41,856 bases of DNA, taken from an uncultured Flavobacteriales bacterium (lineage in GTDB: Bacteria > Bacteroidota > Bacteroidia > Flavobacteriales > Schleiferiaceae). This document shows, in pieces, positions 2,228 through 18,956 of the stretch; the first letter of the stretch is position 1; every line of letters begins with the position of its first letter. The DNA lies in the NCBI GenBank assembly GCA_950073045.1, contig CATMQD010000005.1, forward strand, positions 1 to 41,856, read 5' to 3'. The notes below the pieces were generated by a model that had not been told where the DNA came from, did no database searches, and saw only the letters and a list, made by a program, of their open reading frames with translations. The position numbers and the translations under genes are program-made.

Positions 2228-4021
2228 TTAAGATTTGCGGAAAAGGAAACGAGAAATATAAATCTCTTTTCCATCGAAATTAACCAAGCCTTTGAGGTAA
2301 AGCGGAGCACTGATATTTTTTAGATCGGTCTCCGCTTTTATCTTTTTAATGGGAATCCGAAATCGCTGCTGCCCCTCTTCCAATTGAAATTCTTCATCAG
2401 GGCCAAATCGTACTGCCGCACTGCGTTGGCTACCCAGATTATAATCGCCACTTTGAAAGCCAATTTCAAAACTAGATTCGGTATTACCACCTATGCTAAA
2501 CTCTAAATAACCGTCTTCAAATTCGCTTAAATCTAAAGGCGCTTTCGCTGATAAAGATGCGCCCCACCAATCACCGGTTCCCGTTTTTAGCAGGAGCTTT
2601 CCATTTGGACTTTGCTCCATCACGCAAGTGCCTTCCCAAGCATTAAAGGTTAAATAGGAATCCGCGCCAAAGGAAGCTCGATCCTTCTCATTTGGCCAAA
2701 TCATAACCCCAAGCAAACTAGTATCATTCCGCATTAATCGTATAGAAGGTTGATCTATACGTCGGGGAGGAAGACCCGCTAAGGCAATCGCTTTGTCCTG
2801 GTCTCCATCGAGGGTTTTACGAATGGGTTTTCCATTTCTTTTTAAGCCCTCAAAAACACCTTTATCCACCAAGCTCCACAGTGGTGCCTTGGCTGCCCCA
2901 TCTACCGTAAATAAACCAAAGTGATTCTCTGATCCACCCGCATTTTCACCATCCTTCCAAGGTTCATCAAAGGCTTCGAAATAAAAGCAAGACATCTGAT
3001 TTTCATGGCAATAGGCATTAATCCATAAATGATAGAGCATTTGCATATACTCATTGCCTGCTCCAGATTGCGCTACACTGTAAAACCTATTATCGGCGCT
3101 CGCCCAACCCGTTTCACCAATGTGGATTTCCTTTTTCACTCCAAGATCGTTTAAATAGGAGCTTACTGCCGCTATTTGCGCATCTACACGATCAATGGCT
3201 CTGCCTACCGAAAGTTTTATTTGCCTGAACTTCGCTAAGGTATCCTGACCTTCTGGTAACCACCACCATTCCGGATTATAATGGGTATCGTGAAAAGGAT
3301 AAGAGTGTACTGAGAGATAATCTACTGCCCTAATCAAGGAGTCTAAAGCCGGTAAATGATAATCCTCGGTATCGCCACCCCAAGAGGCAAAATTATCAGA
3401 GCTTGTAATCCATAAATCAGCGGGCAAACTTCCATCTGCCTTGAGCGACTGCAAATACATTACCTCCTTTAAGATAATACGGGGATGCACATAATAGGTG
3501 GCCGCCCAATGCACCATCGACTCATTTCCTACCGCGATAACCTTTACAATATCAGGATACTCTTGAGCCAATTTAATAGCCTGCTCAATTTCTGCCTGGT
3601 TCTCGCTTTTATCCCCTTTAAGGTGATTCGGATGATCGGTCCAGGCTCCCTCGCATTGCATCCAAGCGCCGAGCATCACATACATTTCAAAATCGGAATC
3701 CTCTAGTTTCATCTCCCGAATGGCCTGAAGCAAATTTGGTGTATGATCGTAGAGCCGAGCGTGATAGGTGCGCAAAATGCGAATACCCATCGCGTCGAGA
3801 ATTTTTAAATCCTCCTTTATATCTGCTACGCTAGGCGCCTGGGAGCGATCTACATTTCGGTAGCCACCATAGGCAATCGCCGGAAATTTAGGATTACCCA
3901 AAATTTCCGCTGCATTGCGATCTTTCGGTCCCGAACAAGCAATTAAGCTTGAGAGTCCAAAACCGAAAATCAATGTTTTAATGCCGAACCATAATTTTGA
4001 AACTGCTGGATTTTGATTCAT
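2228..4021 (-). CDS. GH17 beta-1,3-glucanase, lipoprotein with C-terminal beta domain
   Basis: Predicted endo-beta-1,3-glucanase of family GH17, a (beta/alpha)8 enzyme that in marine Bacteroidota laminarin loci cuts unbranched beta-1,3-glucan chains. The 597-residue product has a lipoprotein signal (lipobox LIAC, C29). The barrel covers about residues 45-400. The acid/base lies in VGNES (E167) and the nucleophile in IGETGW (E303). Residues ~425-597 form an extra beta-rich domain that looks like a carbohydrate-binding jelly roll, making the protein longer than plain GH17 enzymes. The ATG at 4021 is the only reasonable start before the lipobox and lies inside the last 44 bases of the upstream GH81 gene, in another frame. 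It is the last gene of the minus-strand PUL operon. Confidence 0.93.
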   Translation of the reverse strand: MNQNPAVSKLWFGIKTLIFGFGLSSLIACSGPKDRNAAEILGNPKFPAIAYGGYRNVDRSQAPSVADIKEDLKILDAMGIRILRTYHARLYDHTPNLLQAIREMKLEDSDFEMYVMLGAWMQCEGAWTDHPNHLKGDKSENQAEIEQAIKLAQEYPDIVKVIAVGNESMVHWAATYYVHPRIILKEVMYLQSLKADGSLPADLWITSSDNFASWGGDTEDYHLPALDSLIRAVDYLSVHSYPFHDTHYNPEWWWLPEGQDTLAKFRQIKLSVGRAIDRVDAQIAAVSSYLNDLGVKKEIHIGETGWASADNRFYSVAQSGAGNEYMQMLYHLWINAYCHENQMSCFYFEAFDEPWKDGENAGGSENHFGLFTVDGAAKAPLWSLVDKGVFEGLKRNGKPIRKTLDGDQDKAIALAGLPPRRIDQPSIRLMRNDTSLLGVMIWPNEKDRASFGADSYLTFNAWEGTCVMEQSPNGKLLLKTGTGDWWGASLSAKAPLDLSEFEDGYLEFSIGGNTESSFEIGFQSGDYNLGSQRSAAVRFGPDEEFQLEEGQQRFRIPIKKIKAETDLKNISAPLYLKGLVNFDGKEIYISRFLFRKS

Positions 4022-7000
4022 AACTCACATTTAAATAATACATCCCATTTGCAATCTGGGGAAGGTCTAAACTTATATTTTTCGAAAGCGCAGTGGTCTT
4101 CATTAGCACTCTACCCTGCATATCCATTAAGCTTAAATCTGCTCCAGCTTTAGGAAGGTCCACATTTAAAATTCCATTGCTAGGGTTTGGATACACTGCA
4201 ATGTAGTCCATCCAGTTCTCATCCAGCCCAATATCGCTACAGGTTCCTACCACATAAGTATCCTTATTACCTGCATTATTACGCTCTCCCGCTCCGGGGA
4301 AGGAATAGGTATAATAGAAGTAAATCAAGTCCCCTTTATTCGCCGTAATCTGATAAGGCTGATTTGGCGTTACCGGATATCCAGGCATACCATTAGGATC
4401 GGTGCCATAATAAAGGATACAGGTAGGTACCCCTACTCCCGCTTGCGATGGAATAAAAGTTAGACTTGGATTATTATCATCCGAAGAGAACTTCCAACTA
4501 AAGTCACCATTAAAACTGGTTCCTTCGCAAGAAGGGGCGGTATCAATTTGCAGCACTAAGGGTGCCGACCATGATGAATCTCCAAAATGATCAAATGCCA
4601 ATAGCTTCCACTCTGTGGCTCCAAGCTGGGCAGTCCAATTTACCGAATAGGGCCTGCTATTTAAACTTTGGTATAATTGACCATTGAGGTAAAACTCTAA
4701 GCGTTGTACACTATCGTTTAAATCGCTAGCAGTTCCTAAAAGCTCTACTTGCTCGCCTTCGAAATAAGACTGACCATTGCTTGGTGCTAAGAAACTCGCC
4801 GTTGGAGGCACATTGGCATTATTCCCAACTACGATAAATAACTCATCGCTATCCTGATAAGTGCCATTGTCCACCACCAAGCGGTATTTATAAACCCCCG
4901 ATTGTAAATTAGAGATGCTGCTTAAGGCGGCGCTTGCATTTGCTGGACTGCTTGCACTCGGACCATAAAGCTGAGTCCACTGATAAGTGAGCGTTGCACC
5001 TCCGGGATCGGAGCTAGCGCTGGCATCTAAATTAGTTTGACTACTGGGTAAAACGATAACTTGGTTTGGACCGGCATCAGCAATAGGCTGACTGTAATTT
5101 AAAGGCCCTTGGAAGAAAAATTCCATCTCACCCAAATTGAACTCGCCCGACTCGAAGTAAATCCTTAAAATTTGCTCGCCCGATTTTAAAGGCACATTGT
5201 TGATGGTTTTGCTCGCCCAGGTATTCCAATCGCCGGTATAGTTAAAGCTAATTCCACTTTTTACAATTTGCCCATCCGACTCTATTCGCATTGGTCCACC
5301 ACCCGCATTGTTGCCACTGGCATAGCGAATATCCACATTATACATTCCCGCTTGCTGCACGTCTACTGTAAACTCTAACCATTCGCCCGAGTTTATCCAG
5401 CCAATTACGGCTCCTTCCGAAGGGTGATTGCTAGCATCCGCCCATTCACTTAAACGGAAATCGCCATTATTGCCCGGCGATAAATCTTGGTAACTTATAG
5501 CATTGGCAAAACCACCTTCAAATAAGTCATATTCTCCCGGAAAAATACTGCCTGGAATAATCGCTGCTGCGCCGCTATAAGGCAATTGCTCGCCCACGGT
5601 AACATGCACTAAGTTAGATACCGCGCAATTTCCGCCTTCGTACATCTGCACATAAAAGCCATGTACACCTGCACTGAGGCTATCTACCGTAAATTGATAA
5701 GGTGCTTGTTGCAGAGTCGCAATGCTATCGCCATTCTGGTACAAAACCATATAATCGGGATTTCCTTGCTGCAGATTAAAGCTCAGTTGAGCATTTCCCC
5801 AAGTATAGGCCCGGTCGAAAAGTACCGTTAGCTCACCTTCTAAATCAGCATCTAAGGAAGTGGCTAGTTCACCCGGATCGACCAGCAATTGCTGCCCATC
5901 AGAAAATGAAACCGTTAAGGGGCTGCTCCCATAATTTTGGGCGGTATAAACGGTATTGCCTCCGCTGCTAAAGGCAACCGCCAGAGGATGATCTGCTGTA
6001 ATGCTTACGTCAGGATGCCCCAGTACTTTCATGGCGTGTAGCCAATAATAAGTTTGAGCATCAGAAACCCCGAATTTCAATGATCGATTAGGATAAGAAT
6101 CGTATAAACTAAGTGCTTTATCAGGGTCTGTAAAGGCCAGATATTGCCACATTATATCATGCCAGAGATTCACATTAGGAGCATTTGCTAAAATGCCGGT
6201 ATTCTGTTCTATTTCCGACCATAAGCTTGCGGCATAAGCCTGATTATGTCCGAGGTACATAGAACCACCATGGATGGGATAAAGCTCTATCCCATAGGAG
6301 GCCGCGATATCTGATGTCCAAAAGGTACCATTATCATAACTATTGCCCCATACCCGAGAAACCAAGCTATATTGTTGATTGGCGCCAAAATTCCGCTGAT
6401 GCTGATCGAACCAATATTCTTCCACCGCCGCTTGCTCGGTAGTGTATAAGTAAATCCCTAGATCGCGAATGGAGTCGTTTCCAGTAATACTGCCCCAGTG
6501 AATGAGGGCCGAGTTAAACTGCATACTTTCGGAAGTTGACTCTTGATCGTTACCCTGCGGGAAACTTGCAAAGCCATTGGCCCAGCAATGACCAGCATAA
6601 GGACTGAAATTCCGTAGATAAGGAAAGAGATTATCATTGCGATTGGCACTAGCTGCATCGCGCACAAGCATATTAATCATCGGTGCCCAATTGGCGGACC
6701 AGCCTGGCTCATATTGTTCCACAAAAGAAGCAGCATGAATAAAATATCCCCAATGGAAATGGTGATCGTTAATATTCACATCTTGGCCATGACCAGCAGG
6801 ATAGCCCAATAGAGCATCCCAAGTTTGGTTGTAATAAAACAGGAAAGCCACTTCGCCAGATTGATAGCTCAACCAATCCTCCAAACGCTCTTTTACGGTT
6901 TTTAGAATACTATTTAAGGCACTGGTATCACCCGTTTGCTCAGCAATTCTTGCAGTTTGAATGAGTCGATTCATGGCCTGGCCTTCATTATAAGAATCGG

Positions 7001-8081
7001 TCCAAGTGGCCAAACCTTCGTTTTTAAGGAGATCTACCTTTTCCTGCAAAGCTGCGGGGTCGAAAGATCCGCTGCGGCAGTTAACATTTGGTAAGGTGGG
7101 TAAAATACCATGAAAGGTATATTGAGTTGAAAACTGATTGCCCTCCATTAATTTAAGATCTCCGCGAACTGTTGGGAATACCTCACTAGTATTTACCACC
7201 GAACCACTAGCTAAAGACGACCATTGGTGAGGCAATAAACCTTGTAGCATTAAACTGTCGGTGCCTTCCATAATTTGGCTTTGCACCGTAAAATCGGTTT
7301 GCACCACCCCGGTTTGCTCATTGTACTGAAAATCGGCGCGACAAACTTGTGGGAATACGAAGGCATGCTTGCGTAAATCATGGGCCTTTTGATCAGGGTT
7401 TCCGCCAGGAGGAAGGAAAAGTAAGGACCAATAATTTTTATTGTTTAAGCTCGAAGTATAGGTGTTTCCATTCTTGGTCCAAGTAGAACCTGAAGGCCCA
7501 TAAATGGCAAAATCGGCGCCATTACGCACCCCTTTTACAATTAAGAAAGAGCCAGAATCTGTTACTGTTCCCTGATTAACCACCACTTGAGCCGTGCTAG
7601 CAGAATCTTTAGTAAAATACAAAAAGGGCATGCCAATTCCGGTTTTCACCTGGAGGTGATTATTGGCATCTTCCCAATCTAGGGTAATCATCCAATCGTC
7701 GTGATCTGCCACATTCACCGCCGAGGTATTCAAACCACTAAGGCCCACAACTACCGGCTCAATATTATCAATTGGTCCCCATGGAATATAGGTAGCCACC
7801 AATCCTTGATTTACCGTTTTTAGGGTAAAGGGATAATTAAAGAGATTAGAGGAATGCGCATTTTTCACTTTATGCGACCACCACTCATTGGTGGGTACGG
7901 GCTTGCTGGCAGCAGGACCCGTTACGTAGGGTGTTCCAGAAGGATAACCATTTCGACCCGCGGCATCGGTGCCCGGAAAATTAGTAGTGTAGGAACCATT
8001 GCCTTTAGTTACCACTTGAGCCTGCAGCAGACTTCCAAACAGTAACAAGAAGCTAAGTCTTAAAAAGGAAGCCTTAGTCAT
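3978..8081 (-). CDS. Modular GH81 endo-beta-1,3-glucanase with CBM6, PKD, Ig-like, CBM56 and T9SS domains
   Basis: Large secreted inverting endo-beta-1,3-glucanase of 1367 residues. A signal peptide (residues 1-22, ending LLQAQ) precedes a GH81 catalytic region (~30-740). That region has the family entry motif PTNEWWS (63-69), the DHHFHWGY block (D439) and the NDQESTSES block with E514 and E518, the usual GH81 catalytic region. Accessory domains follow: an Ig-like stretch (~745-830), CBM6-like (~838-990), PKD/REJ-like (~1000-1086), Ig-like (~1092-1179), CBM56-like (~1185-1281, with LYYG, GYPVTPNQPYQITA and IYFYYTYS), and a type A T9SS sorting domain (~1284-1367, VYPNPSNG). It sits between the phosphorylase and GH17 genes in the PUL operon. 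GH81 and CBM56 are best known from fungi and Gram-positive bacteria, so the module set is unusual here. GH81 and T9SS calls are firm; inner domain borders are approximate. Confidence 0.93.
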   Translation of the reverse strand: MTKASFLRLSFLLLFGSLLQAQVVTKGNGSYTTNFPGTDAAGRNGYPSGTPYVTGPAASKPVPTNEWWSHKVKNAHSSNLFNYPFTLKTVNQGLVATYIPWGPIDNIEPVVVGLSGLNTSAVNVADHDDWMITLDWEDANNHLQVKTGIGMPFLYFTKDSASTAQVVVNQGTVTDSGSFLIVKGVRNGADFAIYGPSGSTWTKNGNTYTSSLNNKNYWSLLFLPPGGNPDQKAHDLRKHAFVFPQVCRADFQYNEQTGVVQTDFTVQSQIMEGTDSLMLQGLLPHQWSSLASGSVVNTSEVFPTVRGDLKLMEGNQFSTQYTFHGILPTLPNVNCRSGSFDPAALQEKVDLLKNEGLATWTDSYNEGQAMNRLIQTARIAEQTGDTSALNSILKTVKERLEDWLSYQSGEVAFLFYYNQTWDALLGYPAGHGQDVNINDHHFHWGYFIHAASFVEQYEPGWSANWAPMINMLVRDAASANRNDNLFPYLRNFSPYAGHCWANGFASFPQGNDQESTSESMQFNSALIHWGSITGNDSIRDLGIYLYTTEQAAVEEYWFDQHQRNFGANQQYSLVSRVWGNSYDNGTFWTSDIAASYGIELYPIHGGSMYLGHNQAYAASLWSEIEQNTGILANAPNVNLWHDIMWQYLAFTDPDKALSLYDSYPNRSLKFGVSDAQTYYWLHAMKVLGHPDVSITADHPLAVAFSSGGNTVYTAQNYGSSPLTVSFSDGQQLLVDPGELATSLDADLEGELTVLFDRAYTWGNAQLSFNLQQGNPDYMVLYQNGDSIATLQQAPYQFTVDSLSAGVHGFYVQMYEGGNCAVSNLVHVTVGEQLPYSGAAAIIPGSIFPGEYDLFEGGFANAISYQDLSPGNNGDFRLSEWADASNHPSEGAVIGWINSGEWLEFTVDVQQAGMYNVDIRYASGNNAGGGPMRIESDGQIVKSGISFNYTGDWNTWASKTINNVPLKSGEQILRIYFESGEFNLGEMEFFFQGPLNYSQPIADAGPNQVIVLPSSQTNLDASASSDPGGATLTYQWTQLYGPSASSPANASAALSSISNLQSGVYKYRLVVDNGTYQDSDELFIVVGNNANVPPTASFLAPSNGQSYFEGEQVELLGTASDLNDSVQRLEFYLNGQLYQSLNSRPYSVNWTAQLGATEWKLLAFDHFGDSSWSAPLVLQIDTAPSCEGTSFNGDFSWKFSSDDNNPSLTFIPSQAGVGVPTCILYYGTDPNGMPGYPVTPNQPYQITANKGDLIYFYYTYSFPGAGERNNAGNKDTYVVGTCSDIGLDENWMDYIAVYPNPSNGILNVDLPKAGADLSLMDMQGRVLMKTTALSKNISLDLPQIANGMYYLNVSYESKSSSFKIMVRH

Positions 8082-8116: not shown

Positions 8117-11100
8117 CTAAGGCAAGGAAAGCCTAATTATTTCTATACTGCCATCACGTGCAAAAAGCGATGCACTATAGTTCGTATTTAGTAGGGTTTC
8201 TTTTTGGCTTATTTTTTCACCATTCTTGAGCTCAAGCACTAATCCAGTACTACCTTTTCCTTTGCTATACACAAATGGAACAGCGCAATAGCTAAATGCA
8301 AGTTCACCGGGTTTTAGCTCAATTTGCTGCCAATCGCCATTTACATCTAGGTAGCGGAATTGCGACTCCGTCTTTAAAAATTCTTCCTCCGACAAAAAGA
8401 AGGGATCAATATGTAATTCTCCTTTATGGGGCGCCAAGCCTAATTCTGCCCAGCGGTTTAAAATATCTTCTTTCACCTGGCCCGTCATTCCAGGTTGTTG
8501 AGCTCCAGCTGTAGAAGGCGTGTGAGAATAAGCATCGAAAGGGAAGGCTCCGTATAGTTCGGGTGACTTATTGGCCCCAATGCCCGCTCTTATCTCATAA
8601 TAATGATCGATTAAGCGACCTATAATTTCGGCTTTAGCGCCACAGGCTTTAGCTCGGATTAGGTTTTCCTGAACGGCTAAAAGCAATTTAGAAACCATGT
8701 GCCAGTAAATACTGCCCAAGCCTTCGTAACCATAAAAAGTTCCCGACCTACCCGTAAAAGCACGATGGATAAACTGCTCTTCATATAAGTCCAGCCAAAA
8801 TTGCTTTTCCGCTTTCACTTCAGCCGAAAGGCCCGACTGAGCTAAGCCTTCTAAATCGGCTAAAAGATCTTTGGCATTGTTGAGATGAGACTTAAAGTGA
8901 TAAAGTCCTTTCACATCCTTTTCCAGCAAATAATCGCTTAATTTCTGGTCCGCTATTGCTGATGCTTCAATATTATTCTTTGCTAAAAAGGCGGCTAAAT
9001 TTCGGTCGGGGTACAGCATATAAGAATACTGATCCTCACGGAACATGGCCGAGTTTTTAAGTCCATCTAAAACCGCTAAGGCTTTTTCGGGAGATAAAGT
9101 TTCGGAAGTTAATACCGCTACCTGGCCTTCCAACATTTCATAAAGCTGCTCCACTTTTGCTTCTGAACCTTCGAGCTTTAAAAGATTATAAGCATGGTAT
9201 AAACCATTTTCCTGTTCATTCGCAGAAATACTACGATCGAGGAATCGAATAGCCCGGGCACAGAACTCACGACATTCTATAATCCCCAGTGCCTGAGTAG
9301 CTCCCAAGTCTAGGGAATAAGCTCTATTACGATAGCGTTCACCCGCTGCACCCATGCGATCAATAAAGTCCTTACGCTGTGCGCCGTTTAAGGAATCTAT
9401 ACTTTGGTAATCGCGAATAATATCGGAGGTAGTGAGGAACAAATCCAATAAGGCCGCATTTACATGCAAATCCTCTTCCTGACTGCTCAACCACGATTCC
9501 ATAAAGCGCAAGAACCGACGGAGGTAATACAAGGTAACCATGCTTAGGCCATTACCCACCAATGCATTATTGGCATCATTCCACTCGGGTCTTTGGGTGT
9601 TCATCCAAATACCGCCCTCGGGCACAAGATTGTACATTTTAGTAAGCGCGGTTAATAGCAGCTTCTCAGCCAAATTAGCCCGCAGAGGCGCATTTTCCTC
9701 CCAAATGAGTTTACCATCAGTACCATAAGCCTGATACCGTTGCTCTGCTGCATCATTGAGCTTTTCATTAAATGTGATGGTATCTTGTGGGTCAGCCATA
9801 ATCTCTTGATGTCCTTTCAATCGGTAGGGAACATCAGCATAAACGAAGCTAAACTCGTGGGTTAAATCCTTCAATAAACCGGGATAATGCTTCTCACTAT
9901 GTTCTAACAAGCGCAAGAGATAAATTATCTGATGGTCACCCCAATACCCAATAAAAGACCAAGGGTCGTGTGGTTCAATCACCTCCCAATCGATGCCATT
10001 TTTGGCGATGCGATAGGGATTATAACCATCAATGGTACTCGCATTTAAAAACTTGAAGATCATCCCCTCAATAAAGCGAGGGTAGGAATAGGCCAAGGCC
10101 TCCCAATTTTGGAAGATATCTCGCCAATTGCCTTCGTAATTTAAAATCTTATTTCCTTCCGCATCAAGGCGAGTAATGCTAAAGCGATTCCATGGACGAG
10201 AGGGATCACCGTGGCGGCGACTGAAACTTAAGGGGAGATACTCCGCGCCTAAACGGCGTAAATCAGCATCTCCTTTTTCTTGCATCCAAGCTTGCAAATC
10301 AGCGTAGCTCATTGGGCCCTTTAAGGCCTTTAAATCACTGGCAAACTTCTCAGATAGCGGCTTATTACTCAGAGCAAGGTACGCTTTAAAATCGGCAAGA
10401 TCCAATCGATAAGTATCTTCAAATAAGCCCCCGCGCATTATATTATAAAGCACATTGCCATAATGCCGACTTTGCACCAATCGATCGGAGGAGCTCTGCA
10501 GGCCATCAGCTTTAGCGACTAAAGTTTGAAGTTCGGTATAAGTTCGCTTTAGCTCTTCTTCTAATTCACTGGCGCTAATGCCATTTTCAATAGCCGCTTT
10601 CAGATTATGCACCTCGGCACTAGAAAGACTGGTTTCGGCCACTAGATACCAAGATTGTATCGCATTCGGATTTAAGGCAAAATCGCGCTGGGCAAACCAA
10701 GCTGATTTTTGGGCCTTAGTAAAAAGCTCAGGCTGTAAATTGGCTCCCTTTCTAAAGGAATCAATTTGCTGATTACTTAAAAGATGTAAGGCTGGATTAT
10801 CTAAAGACCAAACCACATTGGCACTTAGCGACTCACTGGGCTCTGCCTTATCTACAATATTGGAACTCAAACTAAAGATGCCCATTCCGGTATCGGCATC
10901 CAGTTCATTCTTTTTATAGGCATCTACCAAAGTAGAACGTCGATCCTGCATAAGACCATCTACATTCGATGGCAACAAGTTTTCCAGTCCATCTAGGCAT
11001 TCGATCTCACGCGATTGATCGCCGATATTTTGGACTTCTACCTTTCGGATAAATCCATATTTCTGAGAGAAAGCCCAGCGGTAGCTGAATTTCAATAGCA

Positions 11101-11530
11101 AGTCGAAATTGATTTCTTCAAAAACCAATTGCTCGGCGCCAAGACTCTTGTATAAATTCCGCTCTAAGCGGTAAACTCCTTGGTAACGTGTTGAAAACGG
11201 CTCCCATAACCAAGCACTATTCGGCTTTTTAGGGTCGGCCACTCTTATTAATGTTTTAGGCCCAGTGAACTCCGCATTATCTACCAGTTTATCGTCGGTG
11301 TAATAAGGAAATATTGCTCGATCGGCATCTCCTCTTCCTGCGGTTAATCCACCATTACTAGCGATAAACATCCAATGATCGAAGGGACTAACCAAAGTCA
11401 TAAAGAAAGGTGGCATCTGATCTACCTTAGAAATGCGGTAAAAATCCTTGCCATCAAGTTCCACAAATTCACCCTTGGGGCTTTCGGCTCCAAATTGTAA
11501 ATCCTGATTTCCAATCTTAATTCGACTCAT
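8117..11530 (-). CDS. Beta-1,3-glucan phosphorylase, GH149/GH161-like
   Basis: Predicted cytoplasmic inverting phosphorylase that would release glucose-1-phosphate from beta-1,3-gluco-oligosaccharides. The 1137-residue product has no signal peptide or membrane segment. Length and layout fit the GH94-related families GH149 and GH161: an N-terminal beta-sandwich region (FFMTLVSPFDHWMF, residues ~42-55; GGLTAGRGDADRAIFPYYT), then an (alpha/alpha)6-type catalytic region. Within it are YEGNWRDIFQNWEALA (~465-480), DGYNPYRI, WGDHQIIYLLRL and PEWNDANNAL (648-657). The Asp in the WND motif, D652, is the likely catalytic acid by analogy with GH94. It begins four bases after the GH30 stop and is followed by GH81 after 35 bases. 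Its place in a laminarin operon with an MFS porter supports the substrate. Assignment to GH149 rather than GH161 cannot be settled by eye. Confidence 0.82.
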   Translation of the reverse strand: MSRIKIGNQDLQFGAESPKGEFVELDGKDFYRISKVDQMPPFFMTLVSPFDHWMFIASNGGLTAGRGDADRAIFPYYTDDKLVDNAEFTGPKTLIRVADPKKPNSAWLWEPFSTRYQGVYRLERNLYKSLGAEQLVFEEINFDLLLKFSYRWAFSQKYGFIRKVEVQNIGDQSREIECLDGLENLLPSNVDGLMQDRRSTLVDAYKKNELDADTGMGIFSLSSNIVDKAEPSESLSANVVWSLDNPALHLLSNQQIDSFRKGANLQPELFTKAQKSAWFAQRDFALNPNAIQSWYLVAETSLSSAEVHNLKAAIENGISASELEEELKRTYTELQTLVAKADGLQSSSDRLVQSRHYGNVLYNIMRGGLFEDTYRLDLADFKAYLALSNKPLSEKFASDLKALKGPMSYADLQAWMQEKGDADLRRLGAEYLPLSFSRRHGDPSRPWNRFSITRLDAEGNKILNYEGNWRDIFQNWEALAYSYPRFIEGMIFKFLNASTIDGYNPYRIAKNGIDWEVIEPHDPWSFIGYWGDHQIIYLLRLLEHSEKHYPGLLKDLTHEFSFVYADVPYRLKGHQEIMADPQDTITFNEKLNDAAEQRYQAYGTDGKLIWEENAPLRANLAEKLLLTALTKMYNLVPEGGIWMNTQRPEWNDANNALVGNGLSMVTLYYLRRFLRFMESWLSSQEEDLHVNAALLDLFLTTSDIIRDYQSIDSLNGAQRKDFIDRMGAAGERYRNRAYSLDLGATQALGIIECREFCARAIRFLDRSISANEQENGLYHAYNLLKLEGSEAKVEQLYEMLEGQVAVLTSETLSPEKALAVLDGLKNSAMFREDQYSYMLYPDRNLAAFLAKNNIEASAIADQKLSDYLLEKDVKGLYHFKSHLNNAKDLLADLEGLAQSGLSAEVKAEKQFWLDLYEEQFIHRAFTGRSGTFYGYEGLGSIYWHMVSKLLLAVQENLIRAKACGAKAEIIGRLIDHYYEIRAGIGANKSPELYGAFPFDAYSHTPSTAGAQQPGMTGQVKEDILNRWAELGLAPHKGELHIDPFFLSEEEFLKTESQFRYLDVNGDWQQIELKPGELAFSYCAVPFVYSKGKGSTGLVLELKNGEKISQKETLLNTNYSASLFARDGSIEIIRLSLP

Positions 11531-11534
11531 AATT

Positions 11535-13028
11535 TTATTTTGGGGAGATCACAATGGTTTGTAGGGAAGCTGCAGGAATCTCAATATTTATCGCTGCTTC
11601 CTCATCAATCTGATAACTAAAACTTAAGGCATTGTCGGTAGTATTCAAAATCGGAATTACCACTTCGCCATTAGGGTTTTCTAAAGCGCTTAGGTGTAGG
11701 CCTTCCGGCAGATGGTCGGCCTGGAAATCTATCCTTTTAGCGTCTCTGTTTATAAACTGACTAAAATGACGGAGAGCATCGTAAAGCGGGGTAAAATAAA
11801 CCTCTCCACTACTGGTATCGGCTATTACGGGTGCTACGCACCAATTTGAGGCGTGGTTTGGTCCACCTTGTCGATCTAAAACAATATTCCAATCTACCCA
11901 GGCGCTTACCTGATTATTTAGGCAGCCAATGATATCCCGCGCATAGCGGTAAACGGGTACATATTTAGGATGATCGGGTTTATCCTTTTCGGGGGCCCAG
12001 GTATAACCCCAGTCGGTAGCCTCTTTTTTCCAGTACCAAGCGTCATCTTGCCAATGCGGTACTTCAGCATCTACACAGGCCTCGGTATTCCATATTTCCT
12101 TATCCGGTGCAAGTGCATGGGTTTTTTGTAAAGATTCGGGGAACCATTTAAAAGTGCTGGTGTACCAATGCACCGCCGTTCCGTAAATCTGCTCCCTAAT
12201 TTCGGGGTCGCCCAATAACACTTCCGACCATTCTTCTAATTCGGCACCTCTATTTTGATCGTAAACCAAAAGCTTTTGATCCATTTGAGCTTCCGCCAAA
12301 GCTGGCGCTAGGTGGTCTTTAATAAAGAGCCCCATTTCCTCCGGACTAAAATGCATACTCTCCCAATTGGCATCATTGCCGAGAGGCTCATTTTCTACGG
12401 TAAATCCCCAAATGGGCAGGTCTTCATCAGCGTAAGCTTGAGCATACTTTACAAAATATTGCGCCCATAAATCGTAGTACTCGGGCAGCAATTTACCGCC
12501 ATACCAATCGCCATTAACCTTCATATAGGGCGGGGCCGTCCAAGGTGAGGCAAAAAACTTTAGGTCTTCACCTGCTATCTTTCGGGCAGCTTGGGCAATG
12601 GGAATAATATCATCCCGATCGGGGGCAATATCGAAGCTGCTTAAATTGCTATCACCGCTATCCACATAAGCGTATTTGCTAAGCGAGAAATCACAGGAAT
12701 TGATATGCAATCGCACTAAATTATAGGCCGAGGCGGTATCATTAAAATAGGCTTGTAAAACCTTTTGCTTTTGTGCTTCCGGCAGCTTTTGCAGCAGATG
12801 CGCACTGGCCTCCGTTATAGCGCCTCCAAAACCTTCGATGCGCTGGTACTTCTTTTGGGTATTAAGCTTTACTAAGATTGGACTTTCTCCGGCTTGAGCT
12901 TTTACGACTTGTAAGCGCTCACCTTGTGCCGAGCTCTGGTAAACCTTATATGCCCTTTGAGATTCGGTTTGGCAAGAAGGGGTGGCGAAAATAACCGCAA
13001 ATAGCACGAAGTACTTTAGGCTTTTCAT
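11535..13028 (-). CDS. GH30 beta-glucosidase/beta-1,6-glucanase, lipoprotein
   Basis: Retaining glycoside hydrolase of family GH30 (glucosylceramidase-like subfamilies). In marine laminarin loci, GH30 enzymes remove the beta-1,6-linked glucose branches so that the backbone enzymes can proceed; that role is inferred here. The 497-residue protein has a lipoprotein signal (PSCQ, lipidated C19). The barrel carries EGFGGAITEASA (~65-76), SPWTAPPYMK, the acid/base in TVENEP (E214) and the nucleophile in WNTEAC (E316). The usual small beta domain closes the C-terminus. Its ATG overlaps the TGA of the upstream GH16 gene by four bases (ATGA), indicating translational coupling, and the phosphorylase starts four bases after its stop. 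Confidence 0.93.
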   Translation of the reverse strand: MKSLKYFVLFAVIFATPSCQTESQRAYKVYQSSAQGERLQVVKAQAGESPILVKLNTQKKYQRIEGFGGAITEASAHLLQKLPEAQKQKVLQAYFNDTASAYNLVRLHINSCDFSLSKYAYVDSGDSNLSSFDIAPDRDDIIPIAQAARKIAGEDLKFFASPWTAPPYMKVNGDWYGGKLLPEYYDLWAQYFVKYAQAYADEDLPIWGFTVENEPLGNDANWESMHFSPEEMGLFIKDHLAPALAEAQMDQKLLVYDQNRGAELEEWSEVLLGDPEIREQIYGTAVHWYTSTFKWFPESLQKTHALAPDKEIWNTEACVDAEVPHWQDDAWYWKKEATDWGYTWAPEKDKPDHPKYVPVYRYARDIIGCLNNQVSAWVDWNIVLDRQGGPNHASNWCVAPVIADTSSGEVYFTPLYDALRHFSQFINRDAKRIDFQADHLPEGLHLSALENPNGEVVIPILNTTDNALSFSYQIDEEAAINIEIPAASLQTIVISPK

Positions 13029-14242
13029 TCGCTTGCTTTTGCTTGATATACCCGCACATAGTCGAGGATATACTGGTGCTTTTCAAAACTTGGATCGATA
13101 CCTTGGGCACCACCCCAACCTCCGCCAACAGCGAGGTTTATAATGATGTTTTGTGGATTATGAAAGGGCCACTCTAAATCATTAGCGTTCTTATCGTAGG
13201 TAAAATAATACTCACCGTCTAAATAAGCTTCTATACGATCGGGGTACCACTGGATAGCATAGGTGTGGAACTTGGTATCCATGCTATCAATTTCAATTTC
13301 GGAACCAATCTGATTACCCTGTTTAAAGTAATAAGCGCGGGTATGGCAGGTAGCGTGATTTAATCCACTTCCGGTACTGTCGTCAATTTCATAGCCCACG
13401 GTTTCCAAAACATCAATTTCTCCGCAATAAGGCCAAGATATTTCATCGCGATAAGCATCGCCCAATAACCAACCTGCGGCCCAAGTTCCTCTGCCGGCAG
13501 GCACTTTGGCGCGGAATTCAATCTTCCCATAGGTAAAGGCATGTTTTCCTTGGGTGCTCAATCGCGCCGAGGTCCAGGCTTGACCCATATCATTTTTATG
13601 CGCCTCGATAATGAGGTTTCCATTTTCCTGTCGGGCGTTCTCAATACGGTTTTCGGTATAAAATTGTGGTTCATTATTGCCCCAGCCCCAATTTCCAATA
13701 TTGTAAGACCACTTAGTGGTATCAGGTAATCCTGAGCCATCGAACTCATCGCTCCAAACTAGCTCCCAATCCTCGCCTTCCATATTCTGTTTATGGAAGT
13801 TTGGCGTTTCTTGGAGTTTCTTTACCAAGGTGAATTTTAGAGATTTAATGCTCGCGGTTCCTTGAGCTAGATGCAAACGCATGGGATGAGTTCCGGTATC
13901 GAGCGGACTTCCCACAATAGTGCTAAGTGCCATCTGCCCAGAAGGGCGCAGCATACCGGTAATATTATAGCTACGGTCGTCGGTATTTTGGATATAATCC
14001 TCCACCCACAGCTTGGCACTATCGCCACCTTTGGCCATCAGCTCTACTTTGTAGCGACCAGCCTCATTTACTTTTAAGTTGAAGTCTACAAACTTTTGCT
14101 CCCCGAACTGGTAGAGACTATCGCCACCAAATTCTTGAGCGGTAATTTCCAGAGGATCGTCTAATCGAGTTTGGTCTTCGCCTTGTGGATTATGACAAGC
14201 CCCGATGGCTAAAAGCGGTAGGAGGTAAAATATCTTTTTCAT
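13025..14242 (-). CDS. GH16 beta-1,3-glucanase with N-terminal binding domain, lipoprotein
   Basis: Second laminarinase of the locus, 405 residues. A lipoprotein signal (lipobox AIGAC, C16) is followed by a CBM6-like beta domain (~residues 30-140) containing RYKVELMAKGGDSAKLWVED and GTHPMRLHLAQG. The GH16 catalytic domain runs from about 155 to the end and contains WSDEFDG, WGNNEPQFYT and the complete signature GEIDVLE (E275, D277, E280). It ends in YILDYVRVYQ, typical of GH16. It differs from the GH16 at 1103-2227 in its N-terminal domain, so the two enzymes are probably not redundant. It starts one base after the MFS gene stop and overlaps the GH30 start by four bases. The GH16 call is firm; the N-terminal module family is tentative. 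Confidence 0.94.
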   Translation of the reverse strand: MKKIFYLLPLLAIGACHNPQGEDQTRLDDPLEITAQEFGGDSLYQFGEQKFVDFNLKVNEAGRYKVELMAKGGDSAKLWVEDYIQNTDDRSYNITGMLRPSGQMALSTIVGSPLDTGTHPMRLHLAQGTASIKSLKFTLVKKLQETPNFHKQNMEGEDWELVWSDEFDGSGLPDTTKWSYNIGNWGWGNNEPQFYTENRIENARQENGNLIIEAHKNDMGQAWTSARLSTQGKHAFTYGKIEFRAKVPAGRGTWAAGWLLGDAYRDEISWPYCGEIDVLETVGYEIDDSTGSGLNHATCHTRAYYFKQGNQIGSEIEIDSMDTKFHTYAIQWYPDRIEAYLDGEYYFTYDKNANDLEWPFHNPQNIIINLAVGGGWGGAQGIDPSFEKHQYILDYVRVYQAKASE

Positions 14243-14243
14243 G

Positions 14244-15803
14244 CTAGTCTTTTTTTACAAGCAGTTTTTCCAATTCTTCTAAGGAACGCCCTTTGGTTTC
14301 GGGCACCACGCGGATAATGAATATCAATCCTGCCAAGGCAAAAATGCCATATATGAGGAAGGTGGTAGAGCTGCCTAGTACTTCGAGCTCCCAGGGGAAA
14401 ACCCATTGTACGGTAAAGCTTACCGCTGAATTGATTAATCCTACGAATGAAATGGCGATGCCTCGGATTCGATTCGGGAATAACTCGGAAAAGAGTACCC
14501 ACATTACGGGTCCAATTGAAATAGCAAAGGAGGCCACAAAGGCTAAAATCGCAGTTAGAATTAAAAAGGTGTTTAGTTCAATTGCCGAATTGATAATGTC
14601 TTGGGATTTTTCTTCCCAAATATCGGCTGCTACCAAGGGCTCTACAGCGCTTTTAAAAGCATCGGCGGAAGTATAAACCTGGCCTTCAACCGTACTTAGG
14701 TCGGCCTCTAGGGCTAGACTTGTGATATCCTCTGACTTCAAATTAAAGGTTGCCGATTTAAATCCATAGCTCAATACGAACATAGAGATCACAATACCGG
14801 CAACGCCACCAATAAGTAGCGGCTTACGACCGAGTTTATCTATGAAGAGTATCGCTAAAACGGTAAAACCAAGATTTACTAAACCTACCAGAATGGCTTG
14901 CATAAATGAGGCATCAGTGCCCAAACCACTTTGCTCAAAAATCATAGGAGCGTAAAAGAATACCGAATTAATACCGGTAATCTGCTGTAAGATGGCCACT
15001 ACAATCCCGATGCTTAGTACAAGCTTTAAAGCGGGCCTAAAGAGTTCCCCAATGCTCGCTTTGTCTTTCCCCTCATCATCTTGAATATTTTTTTTAATCC
15101 GGTCCAGTTCTTCTAAGGCTCTTTCATTTCCCGCTACTCGGGCCATTACCTTCTGAGCCTCTTCTTCCTGACCGTTCATTATTAACCAGCGTGGACTGCG
15201 AGGAACCAGAAATAGGCCAAAGAAATACAGTATGGCCGGCAAGGTTTCTAAGCCCAGCATCCAGCGCCAATTATGTTTATCGATTCCTAAGTCGGCAATC
15301 CACGAGGCATCACTTTTCCCCAACTGGAGAATCCAATAGTTACTAAAGAAAGCTAAAGAAATACCAATAACGATATTAAGTTGATTAAAGGATACTAGAC
15401 GACCCCTTAACTCTTTAGGAGAAATTTCTGCTATGTAGAGCGGGGCTAAAATTAGAGAAGCTCCTACTCCAAAACCACCAATCATTCGAGCAATTACCAG
15501 GCTTACGAAATCGGGAGCTAAAGCCGAGGCGATTGCGGAAATGGCATAAAGAATTGCAGCCACTCGAAGCACAGCCCTACGACCAAATCGATCGCTTAAA
15601 GGTCCGGCCACCATCATGGCCAAAGTAGAGGTTAATGTTAAAGAAGCTACGGACCAGCCTAACTGTAATTTGGTAAGCTCAAACTCCTCTTCTATAAAGC
15701 CTACAACTCCAGAAATTACGGAGGCATCGAAACCCATAAGTAAGCCCCCTAGGGCCACAATAAGGGCAATCAGAAATACAACATTCGAATTGCTTTGCTT
15801 CAT
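14244..15803 (-). CDS. MFS sugar porter (sugar:cation symporter type)
   Basis: Inner-membrane transporter of the major facilitator superfamily, sugar porter family. The 519-residue, 12-segment protein shows the family marks DRFGRR (71-76), PRSPRWL (201-207), QQITGIN (273-279), DKLGRKPLL and PETKGRS near the C-terminus. It probably imports glucose or short beta-glucans released by the neighbouring hydrolases. Its position between the regulator and enzymes that include a cytoplasmic phosphorylase fits oligosaccharide uptake, though sugar porters mostly carry mono- and disaccharides. Between predicted segments 9 and 10 there is a hydrophilic stretch of about 55 residues (~350-405), longer than usual and expected to face the periplasm. 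It starts 27 bases after the regulator gene and ends one base before the GH16 start. Confidence 0.93.
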   Translation of the reverse strand: MKQSNSNVVFLIALIVALGGLLMGFDASVISGVVGFIEEEFELTKLQLGWSVASLTLTSTLAMMVAGPLSDRFGRRAVLRVAAILYAISAIASALAPDFVSLVIARMIGGFGVGASLILAPLYIAEISPKELRGRLVSFNQLNIVIGISLAFFSNYWILQLGKSDASWIADLGIDKHNWRWMLGLETLPAILYFFGLFLVPRSPRWLIMNGQEEEAQKVMARVAGNERALEELDRIKKNIQDDEGKDKASIGELFRPALKLVLSIGIVVAILQQITGINSVFFYAPMIFEQSGLGTDASFMQAILVGLVNLGFTVLAILFIDKLGRKPLLIGGVAGIVISMFVLSYGFKSATFNLKSEDITSLALEADLSTVEGQVYTSADAFKSAVEPLVAADIWEEKSQDIINSAIELNTFLILTAILAFVASFAISIGPVMWVLFSELFPNRIRGIAISFVGLINSAVSFTVQWVFPWELEVLGSSTTFLIYGIFALAGLIFIIRVVPETKGRSLEELEKLLVKKD

Positions 15804-15830: not shown

Positions 15831-16586
15831 TTACAACTCAAAAGAAAAGCCTTTGGCCCTCAGTTCGTCGTAGCGTTGTTTATCGAATTTATAGAGGCGG
15901 GCCGGACGGTGAGGCACATCCTTTTGGTTTTCCTTTAAGGAGATTAAGAGGTTCATACTAAGAATACGCTTGCGGAAATTCGCTTTATCGTATTTCTCAT
16001 TTAATAGAGCCTCATAGAGCGCCTGTAAATCGGCCAAGGCAAACTTTTCGGGCAAAAGCTCAAAACCTACTGGCTGGTGACGCACTCTTTGTTGCAAAAC
16101 TTTAAGCGCATCATTTAATATTTCACCGTGATCAAAGGCCAATTCTGGAATTGCTTCTAAATCCACCCAATACACACCATCGGCCCAAGCCGAAGCATGT
16201 GGATCGTGCTTAGCAATATCTATTAAGGAATAATATCCGGTGGTAATTACACGGCCAGCTGGGTGACGATCGACCTTGCCATAAACCTGAGTTTGCTCCA
16301 TAAAAAGCTGCTCAATACCGGTAAGGTCGCGTAAAATTCGCTGGGCTGCTACATCGATATTCTCATTAGGATATACCAAATCACCAGGTAAAGCCCACAT
16401 TCCTTTAAAAGGTGCGGCACCACGTTTAATAAGTAATATCTTGAGGCGGTTTTCGTGATATCCAAAAACTACACAGTCGACCGAAACGCCGAACTGGAAA
16501 AACTTATCATAGGATATCTCATAATATGGAACGGCAAACTGCGATTTCCGACTGGTTTGCTCAGTAGTCAGCGTCTTTTCGGCCAT
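15831..16586 (-). CDS. Nudix-fold transcriptional regulator (NrtR/AraR-like), PUL regulator
   Basis: 251-residue predicted DNA-binding regulator: a Nudix-fold sensor domain (~residues 28-160) joined to a C-terminal winged helix (~172-240), the layout of NrtR and the Bacteroides arabinose regulator AraR. The Nudix box region (66-90) is degenerate. E75 and R83 remain, but the second Gly is D69, and the REUxEE core reads R-I-L-R-D-L, so two of the three metal-binding Glu are lost (I84, L88) and one is Asp (D87). Pyrophosphohydrolase activity is therefore unlikely; ligand sensing of a sugar or sugar phosphate is inferred. It is the first gene of the minus-strand laminarin operon and diverges from the CBM-repeat protein gene. 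A candidate operator lies in the shared upstream region, which suggests autoregulation. Confidence 0.88.
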   Translation of the reverse strand: MAEKTLTTEQTSRKSQFAVPYYEISYDKFFQFGVSVDCVVFGYHENRLKILLIKRGAAPFKGMWALPGDLVYPNENIDVAAQRILRDLTGIEQLFMEQTQVYGKVDRHPAGRVITTGYYSLIDIAKHDPHASAWADGVYWVDLEAIPELAFDHGEILNDALKVLQQRVRHQPVGFELLPEKFALADLQALYEALLNEKYDKANFRKRILSMNLLISLKENQKDVPHRPARLYKFDKQRYDELRAKGFSFEL

Positions 16587-16760
16587 GGTGTCGATTTAGT
16601 CAAAAACCAAAAATAGTAAAATTCATTTAGTAAAAGGTACTATAAGTGTAATATCCACATTACATGGTACACCTTAGTTTTCAGGCTTTAAAATAAAAAT
16701 TCGACTTACTTAATGTCATTTCTACCAAAAGTTATATTTTAGTAGCCTAAATCAGTACTA
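16587..16760. promoter_or_regulatory. Divergent promoter/operator region of the laminarin locus
   Basis: This 174-base gap separates the divergent regulator and CBM-repeat protein genes. It holds a perfect six-base inverted repeat, TGTAAT (16647-16652) and ATTACA (16659-16664), with a six-base spacer. Imperfect outer arms flank it: AAGGTAC (16634-16640) against GTACACCTT (16667-16675). On the minus strand, TATTTTTG (16615 to 16608) matches the Bacteroidota TAnnTTTG minus-7 box 21 bases before the regulator start, and a TTTT run (16635 to 16632) could serve as the upstream box. On the plus strand, TATATTTT (16733-16740) lies 20 bases before the ATG at 16761. The inverted repeat overlaps or lies just above the minus-strand promoter. 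Sites were read by eye; no binding data exist here. Confidence 0.55.
16647..16664. promoter_or_regulatory. Candidate operator: TGTAAT-N6-ATTACA inverted repeat
   Basis: Perfect dyad of two six-base arms around a six-base spacer, centred at 16655.5, inside a larger imperfect dyad reaching 16634-16675. Its location between the regulator gene and the divergent target gene makes the Nudix-type regulator the most likely ligand. Confidence 0.5.
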
Positions 16761-18956
16761 ATGAAGAAGATTACCTTATTAATGTTTCTTTTTGCTGCCT
16801 TCACCATGTCGGCGCAAAACGATACAGTTACTTTCAAGGTGGACCTTGCCGGATACTCTGGAACAGGATTCACCTCGGCCCATGTTAATGGGACCTTTAA
16901 CAACTGGTGTGGCGCCTGTAACCCAATGAGCGACCCTGATGGGGATGGCGTTTGGGAAGTGGCCTTACCATTAACCGCCGGTACCATCGAATACAAATTC
17001 ACTATTGATGGTTGGAACGATCAAGAAAACTTGACCTCAGGTTTACCTTGTACTATTACCACCGGTGGATTTACCAACCGAGAGCTTACTTTTAGTGGCG
17101 ATACCGTACTACCAGTAGTATGCTGGGAGGCTTGTGCTGCTTGTGGTAGCACTGGCGCCTCTGGTCCATTAAGCTTACCTATTACTTTCGATGATCCTAA
17201 CATCGCTTATCCAACTTCCTCTTTTGGTGGTGCTGCCGATACTTTAGTAGTTGATCCAACCGATCCTACTAATATGGTATTGGAAATCACCAAAGATGCC
17301 GCTGCTCAAACTTGGGCTGGTTCTATTGTTGGTGATAGCGGTTTAGCTGCTCCCGTTGCTTTTGCTGCCGGTGCTACTACAATGACTATGCGCGTTTGGT
17401 CTCCAGATGCTGGAGTAGAAATCCGTTTGAAATTAGAAGACTTTACTGATCCTACTGTTTCTGTAGAGACGGTTGATTCTACTACCGTTGCTGGTGGTTG
17501 GGAAACCCTGACTTTCGATTTTAGCAATCAAGCAAGCGGTACCGCGGCTATTAACTTTGCGAGTACATACGACAAAATTGCTGTATTCCCGAATTTCGGT
17601 GCCACCGGTACTACCAAAACTTTCTACATCGACGATATTATGTTCGGTGCAGGTGGACCAAGCGTAGTATTACCAAGTCTTCCAATCACTTTCGATGACC
17701 CTAATGTAGATTATACCAGCGGTGAGTTCGGTGGTGCTACCGATACTATTGTAGCCGATCCTACCGATCCTACCAATATGGTGTCTGAAATCCATAAAGA
17801 CGGTTCTGCTCAAACTTGGGCGGGTATTGTTATCACCAACAGTGGCTTAGCTTCTCCAGTACCTTTTACTGCGAATGATAATATCCTAAGCATGCGCGTT
17901 TGGAGTCCAGATGCGGGTATTGAAGTACGTATGAAAATCGAGGATAATAATGACCCTACTGTATCTGTAGAAACTGTAGATACTATTATGACTGCTGGTG
18001 CTTGGGATACCTTGGTATTCGACTTTAGCAACCAAGCAAGTGGCACAGCTGCTATTAACTACGCCAATACTTACGACAAAGTAGTAGTATTCCCTAACTT
18101 CGGTGTGGATGGCGCTACTGCAGGTGCAAAGACCTATTATGTTGATGACATTTCTTTCGGAATGATTATGCCTCCTCCTCCCGCTTTAGACACAATCGAC
18201 CTTCCTATCACTTTTGATGATCCTAGCGTTGATTATGATGTTACCAGCGAGTTCGGTGGTTGTGTAGATAGCTTAACCGTTGATCCTACCAATGCCTCTA
18301 ATAATGTATTGCGTATCGAGAAAACTGGTGGCGCTGAAACTTGGGGTGGTATTGTAGTAACTACCGGAGGTATGAAAAATGCCATTCCATTTACCGCTAC
18401 TTCTACAGGAATGAAAATGCGTGTTTGGTCTCCTGATGCAGGTACCGATTTCCTATTGAAAGTTGAAGATTCTAATGACGCTACCATTTCTGCAGAAACA
18501 GTAGCTACCACCACCACTGCTGGTGCTTGGGAAACATTAAGCTTCGATCTTTCTAATACTCCTGCAGGTACGCCAGCTTTTGATCCAGCGGCTAACTACG
18601 ATGTAGTAGTTGTATTCCCGAACTTCGGAACTCCTGGTATTGCAGTAGGTGCAAAAACTTATTACATTGACGATATCGAGTTCGATAACTCTATCGGTTT
18701 AAACGAGGCTAATTGGGCAGCAAACTGGACCTTAGCGCCAAACCCAAGTACTGGTATCGTTCGTTTGGAAGGCTTGCAAGCTGAAAACTTCGATGTTCAA
18801 GTAATGGACCTTAATGGTCGCTTGATCCTAAAAACTAACACTAGCCAATTGAATCAAGGGGAACTGAACCTCAGCAACCTGAACAATGGAATTTATCTAA
18901 TTACGGTTTCTAACGAATTTAAGTCGGAAAGTCGTAAACTGATCATCACCAAATAG
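16761..18956 (+). CDS. Secreted multi-CBM glucan-binding protein with T9SS sorting domain, no catalytic domain
   Basis: 731-residue non-enzymatic secreted protein. A signal peptide (1-19, ending MSAQ) is followed by a CBM20/48-like domain (~20-115, with VNGTFNNW and YKFTIDGW). A Cys-containing linker (CWEACAACG) leads to three tandem ~160-residue domains (139-297, 307-467, 481-642). Each repeat carries LPITFDDP, EFGG or SFGG, TWAG or TWGG, MRVWSPDAG, a ETxxFDxSN block, VFPNFG and YYIDDI or a close variant. A T9SS type A tail closes the protein (~645-731, APNPSTG). The repeat type matches the C-terminal domain of the surface binding protein at the left edge. It is divergent from the PUL regulator and followed by a strong terminator, so it is probably a single-gene transcript co-regulated with the operon. 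It likely binds laminarin at the cell surface or is released; the ligand is inferred. Codons are T-ending and look highly expressed. Confidence 0.88.
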   Translation: MKKITLLMFLFAAFTMSAQNDTVTFKVDLAGYSGTGFTSAHVNGTFNNWCGACNPMSDPDGDGVWEVALPLTAGTIEYKFTIDGWNDQENLTSGLPCTITTGGFTNRELTFSGDTVLPVVCWEACAACGSTGASGPLSLPITFDDPNIAYPTSSFGGAADTLVVDPTDPTNMVLEITKDAAAQTWAGSIVGDSGLAAPVAFAAGATTMTMRVWSPDAGVEIRLKLEDFTDPTVSVETVDSTTVAGGWETLTFDFSNQASGTAAINFASTYDKIAVFPNFGATGTTKTFYIDDIMFGAGGPSVVLPSLPITFDDPNVDYTSGEFGGATDTIVADPTDPTNMVSEIHKDGSAQTWAGIVITNSGLASPVPFTANDNILSMRVWSPDAGIEVRMKIEDNNDPTVSVETVDTIMTAGAWDTLVFDFSNQASGTAAINYANTYDKVVVFPNFGVDGATAGAKTYYVDDISFGMIMPPPPALDTIDLPITFDDPSVDYDVTSEFGGCVDSLTVDPTNASNNVLRIEKTGGAETWGGIVVTTGGMKNAIPFTATSTGMKMRVWSPDAGTDFLLKVEDSNDATISAETVATTTTAGAWETLSFDLSNTPAGTPAFDPAANYDVVVVFPNFGTPGIAVGAKTYYIDDIEFDNSIGLNEANWAANWTLAPNPSTGIVRLEGLQAENFDVQVMDLNGRLILKTNTSQLNQGELNLSNLNNGIYLITVSNEFKSESRKLIITK
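17175..18686 (+). repeat. Three tandem ~480-base repeats encoding CBM-like domains
   Basis: Copies at about 17175-17651, 17679-18161 and 18201-18686. All begin with codons for LPITFDDP and end with codons for a YIDDI-type strand. Copies 1 and 2 are the closest, sharing for example DPTDPTNMV, QTWAG and DFSNQASGTAAIN, while copy 3 has diverged. This fits internal duplication with an older split of copy 3. Confidence 0.85.

Follow-up and report, generated by a model that had tools for sequence, protein, structure and literature searches.

The window, by which we mean the whole stretch of 41,856 nucleotides that was analysed, is contig C5 of a 3.47 Mb assembly comprising 348 contigs, from a marine-type bacterium. 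Its left half is occupied by a beta-1,3-glucan locus encoding enzymes of the GH16, GH17, GH81, GH149 and GH30 families, as recognised with Pfam and curated profile models. The plus strand of the locus carries the gene for a surface glycan-binding protein (SGBP) and a GH16 gene, and the minus strand, read from the regulator, carries the genes for an NrtR-like regulator, a sugar-porter MFS transporter, GH16, GH30, GH149, GH81 and GH17. The SGBP is incomplete because the contig end cuts through its 5' part. Divergently from the regulator runs the gene of main concern here, which encodes a protein predicted to be exported by the type IX secretion system (T9SS). The features are the following.

2..1030, plus strand: SGBP with its 5' end lost at the contig end; aa 1-186 match PDB 7kv5
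599..1027, plus strand: single X584-type module at the SGBP C-terminus (aa 200-342), also recognised by Pfam CBM_4_9 (37.3 bits, cut-off 25.9)
1103..2227, plus strand: GH16 enzyme of the endo-beta-glucanase type
2228..4021, minus strand: GH17-type enzyme (Pfam)
3978..8081, minus strand: GH81 enzyme with CBM6 and a T9SS tail (Pfam)
8117..11530, minus strand: GH149 1,3-beta-D-glucan phosphorylase (1513 bits, cut-off 1150)
11535..13028, minus strand: GH30 enzyme (Pfam)
13025..14242, minus strand: second GH16 enzyme (Pfam)
14244..15803, minus strand: sugar porter family MFS transporter
15831..16586, minus strand: NrtR-like regulator of the Nudix family, divergent from the T9SS gene (NF050029, 9e-42; 143 bits, under the cut-off of 400)
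16587..16760, no strand: divergent promoter region, 174 bp between the regulator and the T9SS gene
16761..18956, plus strand: predicted T9SS-exported protein of 731 aa, with a CBM48-like head, three X584-type modules and a type A sorting domain
16761..16817, plus strand: signal peptide (aa 1-19) ending in ...FTMSAQ, without a lipobox cysteine (read from the sequence)
16824..17156, plus strand: CBM48/AMPK-like head (Pfam and head alignment)
17175..17645, plus strand: X584-type (8qx6-like) module, repeat 1, aa 139-295
17679..18158, plus strand: X584-type module, repeat 2, aa 307-466
18201..18683, plus strand: X584-type module, repeat 3, aa 481-641
18738..18947, plus strand: C-terminal sorting domain of T9SS type A, aa 660-729 (Por_Secre_tail, PF18962, 1.1e-14; TIGR04183, 50.5 bits, cut-off 23)

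The preliminary description of this gene, as encoding a non-catalytic T9SS protein with a CBM-like head and three repeats, was borne out by the domain searches. The head scored 44.4 bits against Pfam CBM_48 (aa 39-91, cut-off 22.4), the sorting domain scored above the TIGR04183 cut-off and was combined with an N-terminal signal peptide identified by eye, as in T9SS type A cargo, and Pfam detected no catalytic domain in the 731 aa, the repeats filling the remaining length. The start of the signal peptide and its ...AQ end were invariant in 11 of 11 aligned homologues. The protein does not qualify as a lipoprotein of the SusE-like/SGBP kind, since no cysteine occurs in MKKITLLMFLFAAFTMSAQ-ND after the signal peptide. 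The whole-protein model was of low quality (mean pLDDT 71, pTM 0.33, with part of the head below 50), and we therefore make no claim on the arrangement of the domains.

Pairwise identities between the repeats were 68%, 55% and 57.5%, and each repeat shared 33-37% identity with aa 200-342 of the SGBP. The Smith-Waterman scores between the repeats and the SGBP domain (143-175) exceeded all those obtained with 500 shuffles (mean ~32, sd 5-6, maximum 56), so that their homology is far above chance. The proposal that the repeats share a domain with the C-terminus of the left-edge binding protein, and that one domain type is used as a single copy in the SGBP and in triplicate in the T9SS protein within one beta-1,3-glucan locus, thus holds. 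The motifs quoted in support of it were mostly right, with some inexact letters: repeat 3 has TWGG for TWAG, only repeat 1 and the SGBP match RLKLED letter for letter, and the SGBP has WQELSWDF, FPGWG and YVDDI in place of WETLxFDF, FPNFG and YIDDI. The C-terminal domain of the GH17-type enzyme (2228-4021) was also considered as a further copy and rejected, its Smith-Waterman scores being at shuffle level against all four window domains. Searches of the T9SS repeats for CBM_4_9 gave nothing above the Pfam cut-off (2 of 16 copies matched, best E 0.024). No Pfam model fits the repeats or the 8qx6-type copies, which is why the repeats look unnamed.

The idea of an undescribed module family had to be abandoned, because the solved structure 8qx6 was matched by profile, Foldseek and VIA alike. 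The profile of the four window domains recovered PDB 8qx6, deposited under the title 'Novel laminarin-binding CBM X584' and released on 2024-09-18, with an E-value of 3e-12 over 159 of 159 positions, and no other credible solved chain beside it. With a profile of 80 rows the value was 9e-43, which is partly circular: 76 of these rows are sequences of relatives, and 8qx6 itself had served to find several of them (alignment A2 combined the 4 window copies with 76 of 112 copies detected; alignments A5, A6 and A7 were hand-picked subsets). Profile-profile comparisons with hhalign gave 1.4e-23 for the T9SS rows alone against the 8qx6-type rows, 1.2e-23 for the SGBP group against the same rows, and 1.6e-26 for the T9SS group against the SGBP group. 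The predicted model of repeat 1 (mean pLDDT 96.5) ranked 8qx6 first both in Foldseek (2.4e-07) and in VIA (Z 18.2, rmsd 2.4, 146 aligned residues; next entry Z 13.3). Five positions of repeat 1 (47, 75, 109, 138 and 151) held an aromatic residue in all 28 T9SS copies; the same was true of 10 or 11 of the 11 SGBP copies and of 98-100% of the 41 copies taken from SGBPs of the 8qx6 type. As judged from these profiles and from a predicted model, the repeats are relatives of a described laminarin-binding module and their family is not new. It had been considered that the repeats might match a named family devoid of beta-1,3-glucan binding; the nearest described module is, on the contrary, named for laminarin binding.

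Multi-copy relatives were found in Christiangramia SGBPs. A scan with the 8qx6 sequence returned 23 named loci, the best being Christiangramia/Gramella (81%), and C. forsetii was absent among its matches. The SGBPs of these loci bear a PKD domain (seen in L044), and those of L044, L045 and L046 contain exactly four module copies each, all four being detected by the window profile, which found at least one copy in 22 of the 23 loci and none in L060. We take the X584 module of 8qx6 to be CBM102, a family reportedly introduced in 2024 by Zühlke and colleagues for the four modules of a C. forsetii SGBP; the same authors are said to have described CBM103 on a GH16_3. The four copies in L044-L046 agree with this account. 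The title of Zühlke et al. 2024 (doi 10.1111/1462-2920.16624) stands in the reference lists of PMC11093988, PMC12915301 and PMC13235733.

In a tree of 123 module copies, separate clades were formed by the 30 T9SS-type copies (100/100), by the copies of the window SGBP type (10 rows, 100/99) and by those of the 8qx6 type (32 rows, 100/100). In the Christiangramia-type SGBPs, copies 2 and 3 fell into further deep clades, the deepest forks being weak (64/62). The four copies of single Christiangramia-type SGBPs fell into three separated clades with the T9SS repeats among them, again with weak deep forks. Given this separation, the T9SS and SGBP copies of the locus are old paralogous lineages and not the result of recent copying between neighbours. 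Since the 8qx6-type and T9SS clades are both well supported and have long stems, specificity may have drifted. Full-length versions of the window SGBP in three relatives are 450-457 aa long, with a lipobox-like N-terminus (SACKEDD, TSCKEDD, TSCSDDD), and are encoded directly downstream of the genes for a 1040-aa SusC-type and a 489-aa SusD-type protein, both identified from their size, their position and a reading of the sequence by eye.

The gene context was compared in 12 genomes, namely ten further loci, G016 and the window. The T9SS repeat gene adjoins the NrtR-like regulator in all 12, and GH149 lies on the same contig, 5.7-15.0 kb off, in 11 of them. In the remaining genome, G016, the repeat gene is beside the regulator on an 11.7 kb contig, and this contig gave no GH16, GH81 or GH149 match. 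The G008 operon encodes an additional enzyme near GH158 (PDB 9oro, 3e-100), and a similar protein was noticed by eye in G006. On a broader scale, the module was present in 36 of 60 genomes of the family, and in these genomes GH16 (35/36, vs 9/24 in the others), GH149 (22/36 vs 3/24) and GH81 (14/36 vs 0/24) were more frequent, counts that are uncorrected for relatedness and include the window genome. Only 29 of the 63 module clusters in the family had a GH16, GH81 or GH149 match on their contig at a distance of 25 kb or less, a count that fragmented contigs lower. T9SS proteins of ~416 aa with two module copies (L067:8207-9454, minus strand; L068:9073-10320, plus strand; L073:9034-10281, plus strand) are conserved among housekeeping genes, outside glucan loci. 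Some giant proteins also begin with the head and a single module copy (L070:5-7912, minus strand; open frames of 2968 aa in G044 and 2867 aa in G054), and the one in G038 has MAM and fn3 domains in addition. The copies among housekeeping genes and in the giant MAM/fn3 protein show that the module is not confined to glucan loci.

The divergent promoter (16587-16760) contains two copies of an ACYAWAAG-containing motif, TACTATAAGTGTA (16638) and ACCAAAAG (16724), both conserved among relatives. The ACYAWAAG core occurs 15 times in the window vs 7.3 expected, a number reached by 1 of 100 shuffles, and TACYAWAAGTNTA, with one mismatch allowed, occurs 3 times vs 1.11 expected, with 8 of 100 shuffles reaching 3. 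In three relatives, the stretches preceding SusC lacked the motif core. These observations do not support a regulatory motif shared by the T9SS gene and SusC.

The head possesses six invariant cysteines (30, 33, 77, 101, 105 and 108 in the numbering of the head alignment). All 14 heads compared share its W29, K59 and W65, which align with the glycogen-binding residues of AMPK (FNNW, YKF and DG-W) in an alignment with the AMPK beta-1 domain that is weak (E 0.003). Matches to the head profile were obtained in 114 of the 296 genomes of the order, making it a common domain of T9SS proteins. A single N-terminal head is found in the window and in the other genomes of the same genus, two C-terminal heads in G008 and G034, one C-terminal head in G006 and none in G009, and the number of repeats among the relatives examined is three, two or one. 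Given this variation in head position, head number and repeat number, heads and repeats are separately exchangeable parts. L086:4736-6079, L087:4633-5967 and L088:4515-5858 encode T9SS-like proteins in which two six-cysteine heads occur without any X584-type module. The three genes lie directly downstream of GH16 in SusC/SusD-type loci of other genera (three loci opened), suggesting that the head too may serve beta-glucan.

Further observations concern CBM48-like domains. Within the window, ~8 kb from the T9SS gene, 26725-28233 (minus strand) encodes a protein of 502 aa in which PF16561 recognises four AMPK/CBM48-like domains (4.8e-54, four stretches) and Pfam nothing catalytic. In G016, a second T9SS-like protein with two heads is present on the far side of the regulator (L092:2433-3437, plus strand). 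We also noted 13 pairs of neighbouring head and GH16 genes, taken from lists picked by eye and thus having no denominator; three of these loci were opened.

We consider that the T9SS protein is probably a non-catalytic accessory protein for laminarin capture in a laminarin utilisation locus, complementing the lipoprotein SGBP. Three X584-type modules in tandem would bind beta-1,3-glucan chains with increased avidity, and T9SS export and sorting would allow the protein to hold laminarin at or near the cell surface. The polysaccharide so held could then be cut by the secreted GH16 and GH81 enzymes, and the fragments taken up by the SusCD/SGBP complex, whose SGBP has a single member of this module family. 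Laminarin binding by these particular copies, surface retention, avidity and hand-over of the substrate are all steps that we infer.

The modules could instead bind another glycan or the surface matrix of the cell itself, the protein being an adhesin or cell-cell contact protein that lies beside the locus by chance. The same module does occur in T9SS proteins among housekeeping genes, the giant MAM/fn3 protein that has it also begins with the same head, and the fold superfamily takes in meprin MAM domains (VIA Z ~11). We nevertheless find this explanation unlikely, since in all 12 genomes compared the repeat gene adjoins the NrtR-like regulator, in 11 of them with GH149 on the contig, and the closest solved relative is a laminarin-binding CBM. 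Tandem beta-sandwich domains often act as spacers, and the varying copy number in the relatives examined (one to three) would fit repeats that have lost ligand binding and merely extend the head from the surface. We give hardly any credence to such a role: the aromatic positions are kept in 28 of 28 T9SS copies, though some may be core residues, and G009 has three repeats and no head to extend.

The absence of a head in G009, where the triple repeat stands in the same kind of locus, also argues against a bridge between two ligands, with the head binding alpha-glucan, be it glycogen, starch or a glucan of the cell itself, and the repeats binding beta-1,3-glucan. A score above the Pfam CBM_48 cut-off and the retention of the residues aligned with FNNW, YKF and DGW would be expected of such a protein, but head-only T9SS genes are located directly downstream of GH16 in the three SusC/SusD-type loci opened, and a Pfam scan of seven proteins from the left end of the window detected no domain of the GH13 type. 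We thus regard an alpha-glucan bridge as very improbable. More tentatively, and with considerable doubt, the capture protein could belong to a second layer of laminarin capture that marine Bacteroidota of this family would have beside the SusCD/lipoprotein route, made up of non-catalytic T9SS proteins that mix X584-type modules and six-cysteine heads in varying number and order, under the NrtR-like regulator or behind the GH16 of SusCD loci; the head would then represent a new branch of the CBM48 fold binding beta-glucan and not alpha-glucan.

Laminarin is among the most abundant marine polysaccharides. If our preferred reading, a laminarin-capture protein, is correct, the T9SS triple-module protein, with its conserved position at the end of the operon where the regulator lies, would add a means of capture distinct from both the enzymes and SusCD. 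The relatives, with zero, one or two heads and one, two or three repeats, offer ready constructs for the questions of avidity and head ligand. A literature search on laminarin, type IX secretion, carbohydrate binding and surface glycan binding gave one paper, on cellulose and alginate enzymes, and we make no claim that the T9SS arrangement is unpublished.

Among known systems, the window SGBP resembles in its N-terminal part PDB 7kv5, a 'PKD domain protein' (5e-22 for aa 1-186) that is presumably the SGBP of a Bacteroides beta-glucan locus; this likeness concerns the left-edge SGBP only, the T9SS protein having neither such a domain nor a lipobox. The head resembles the CBM48/AMPK beta-subunit glycogen-binding domain (PF02922, PF16561; PDB 1z0n) in its CBM_48 score and in the alignment of its W, K and W residues, but is set apart by its six invariant cysteines and by a C-terminal extension lying beyond the aligned region, and it is fused to X584-type modules and not to an amylase or a kinase subunit. 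CBM_4_9 (PF02018), CBM4, CBM11 (VIA Z 12.7) and CBM29 belong to the same beta-sandwich superfamily as the repeats; the SGBP copy passes the CBM_4_9 cut-off whereas the T9SS repeats do not, and 8qx6 is clearly closer. With 8qx6/X584 the repeats share full-length homology (28-30% identity), the fold, the conserved aromatic residues and the occurrence of several copies in one protein without a catalytic domain. The 8qx6-type copies are found in Flavobacteriaceae SGBPs that bear a PKD domain, and three Christiangramia-type loci have four of them, whereas the window repeats are three in number, form a separate clade and reside in a T9SS-exported protein with a CBM48-like head. The module and its multi-copy use are thus already known, and their arrangement as a triplet behind a CBM48-like head in a T9SS protein is a variant of them.
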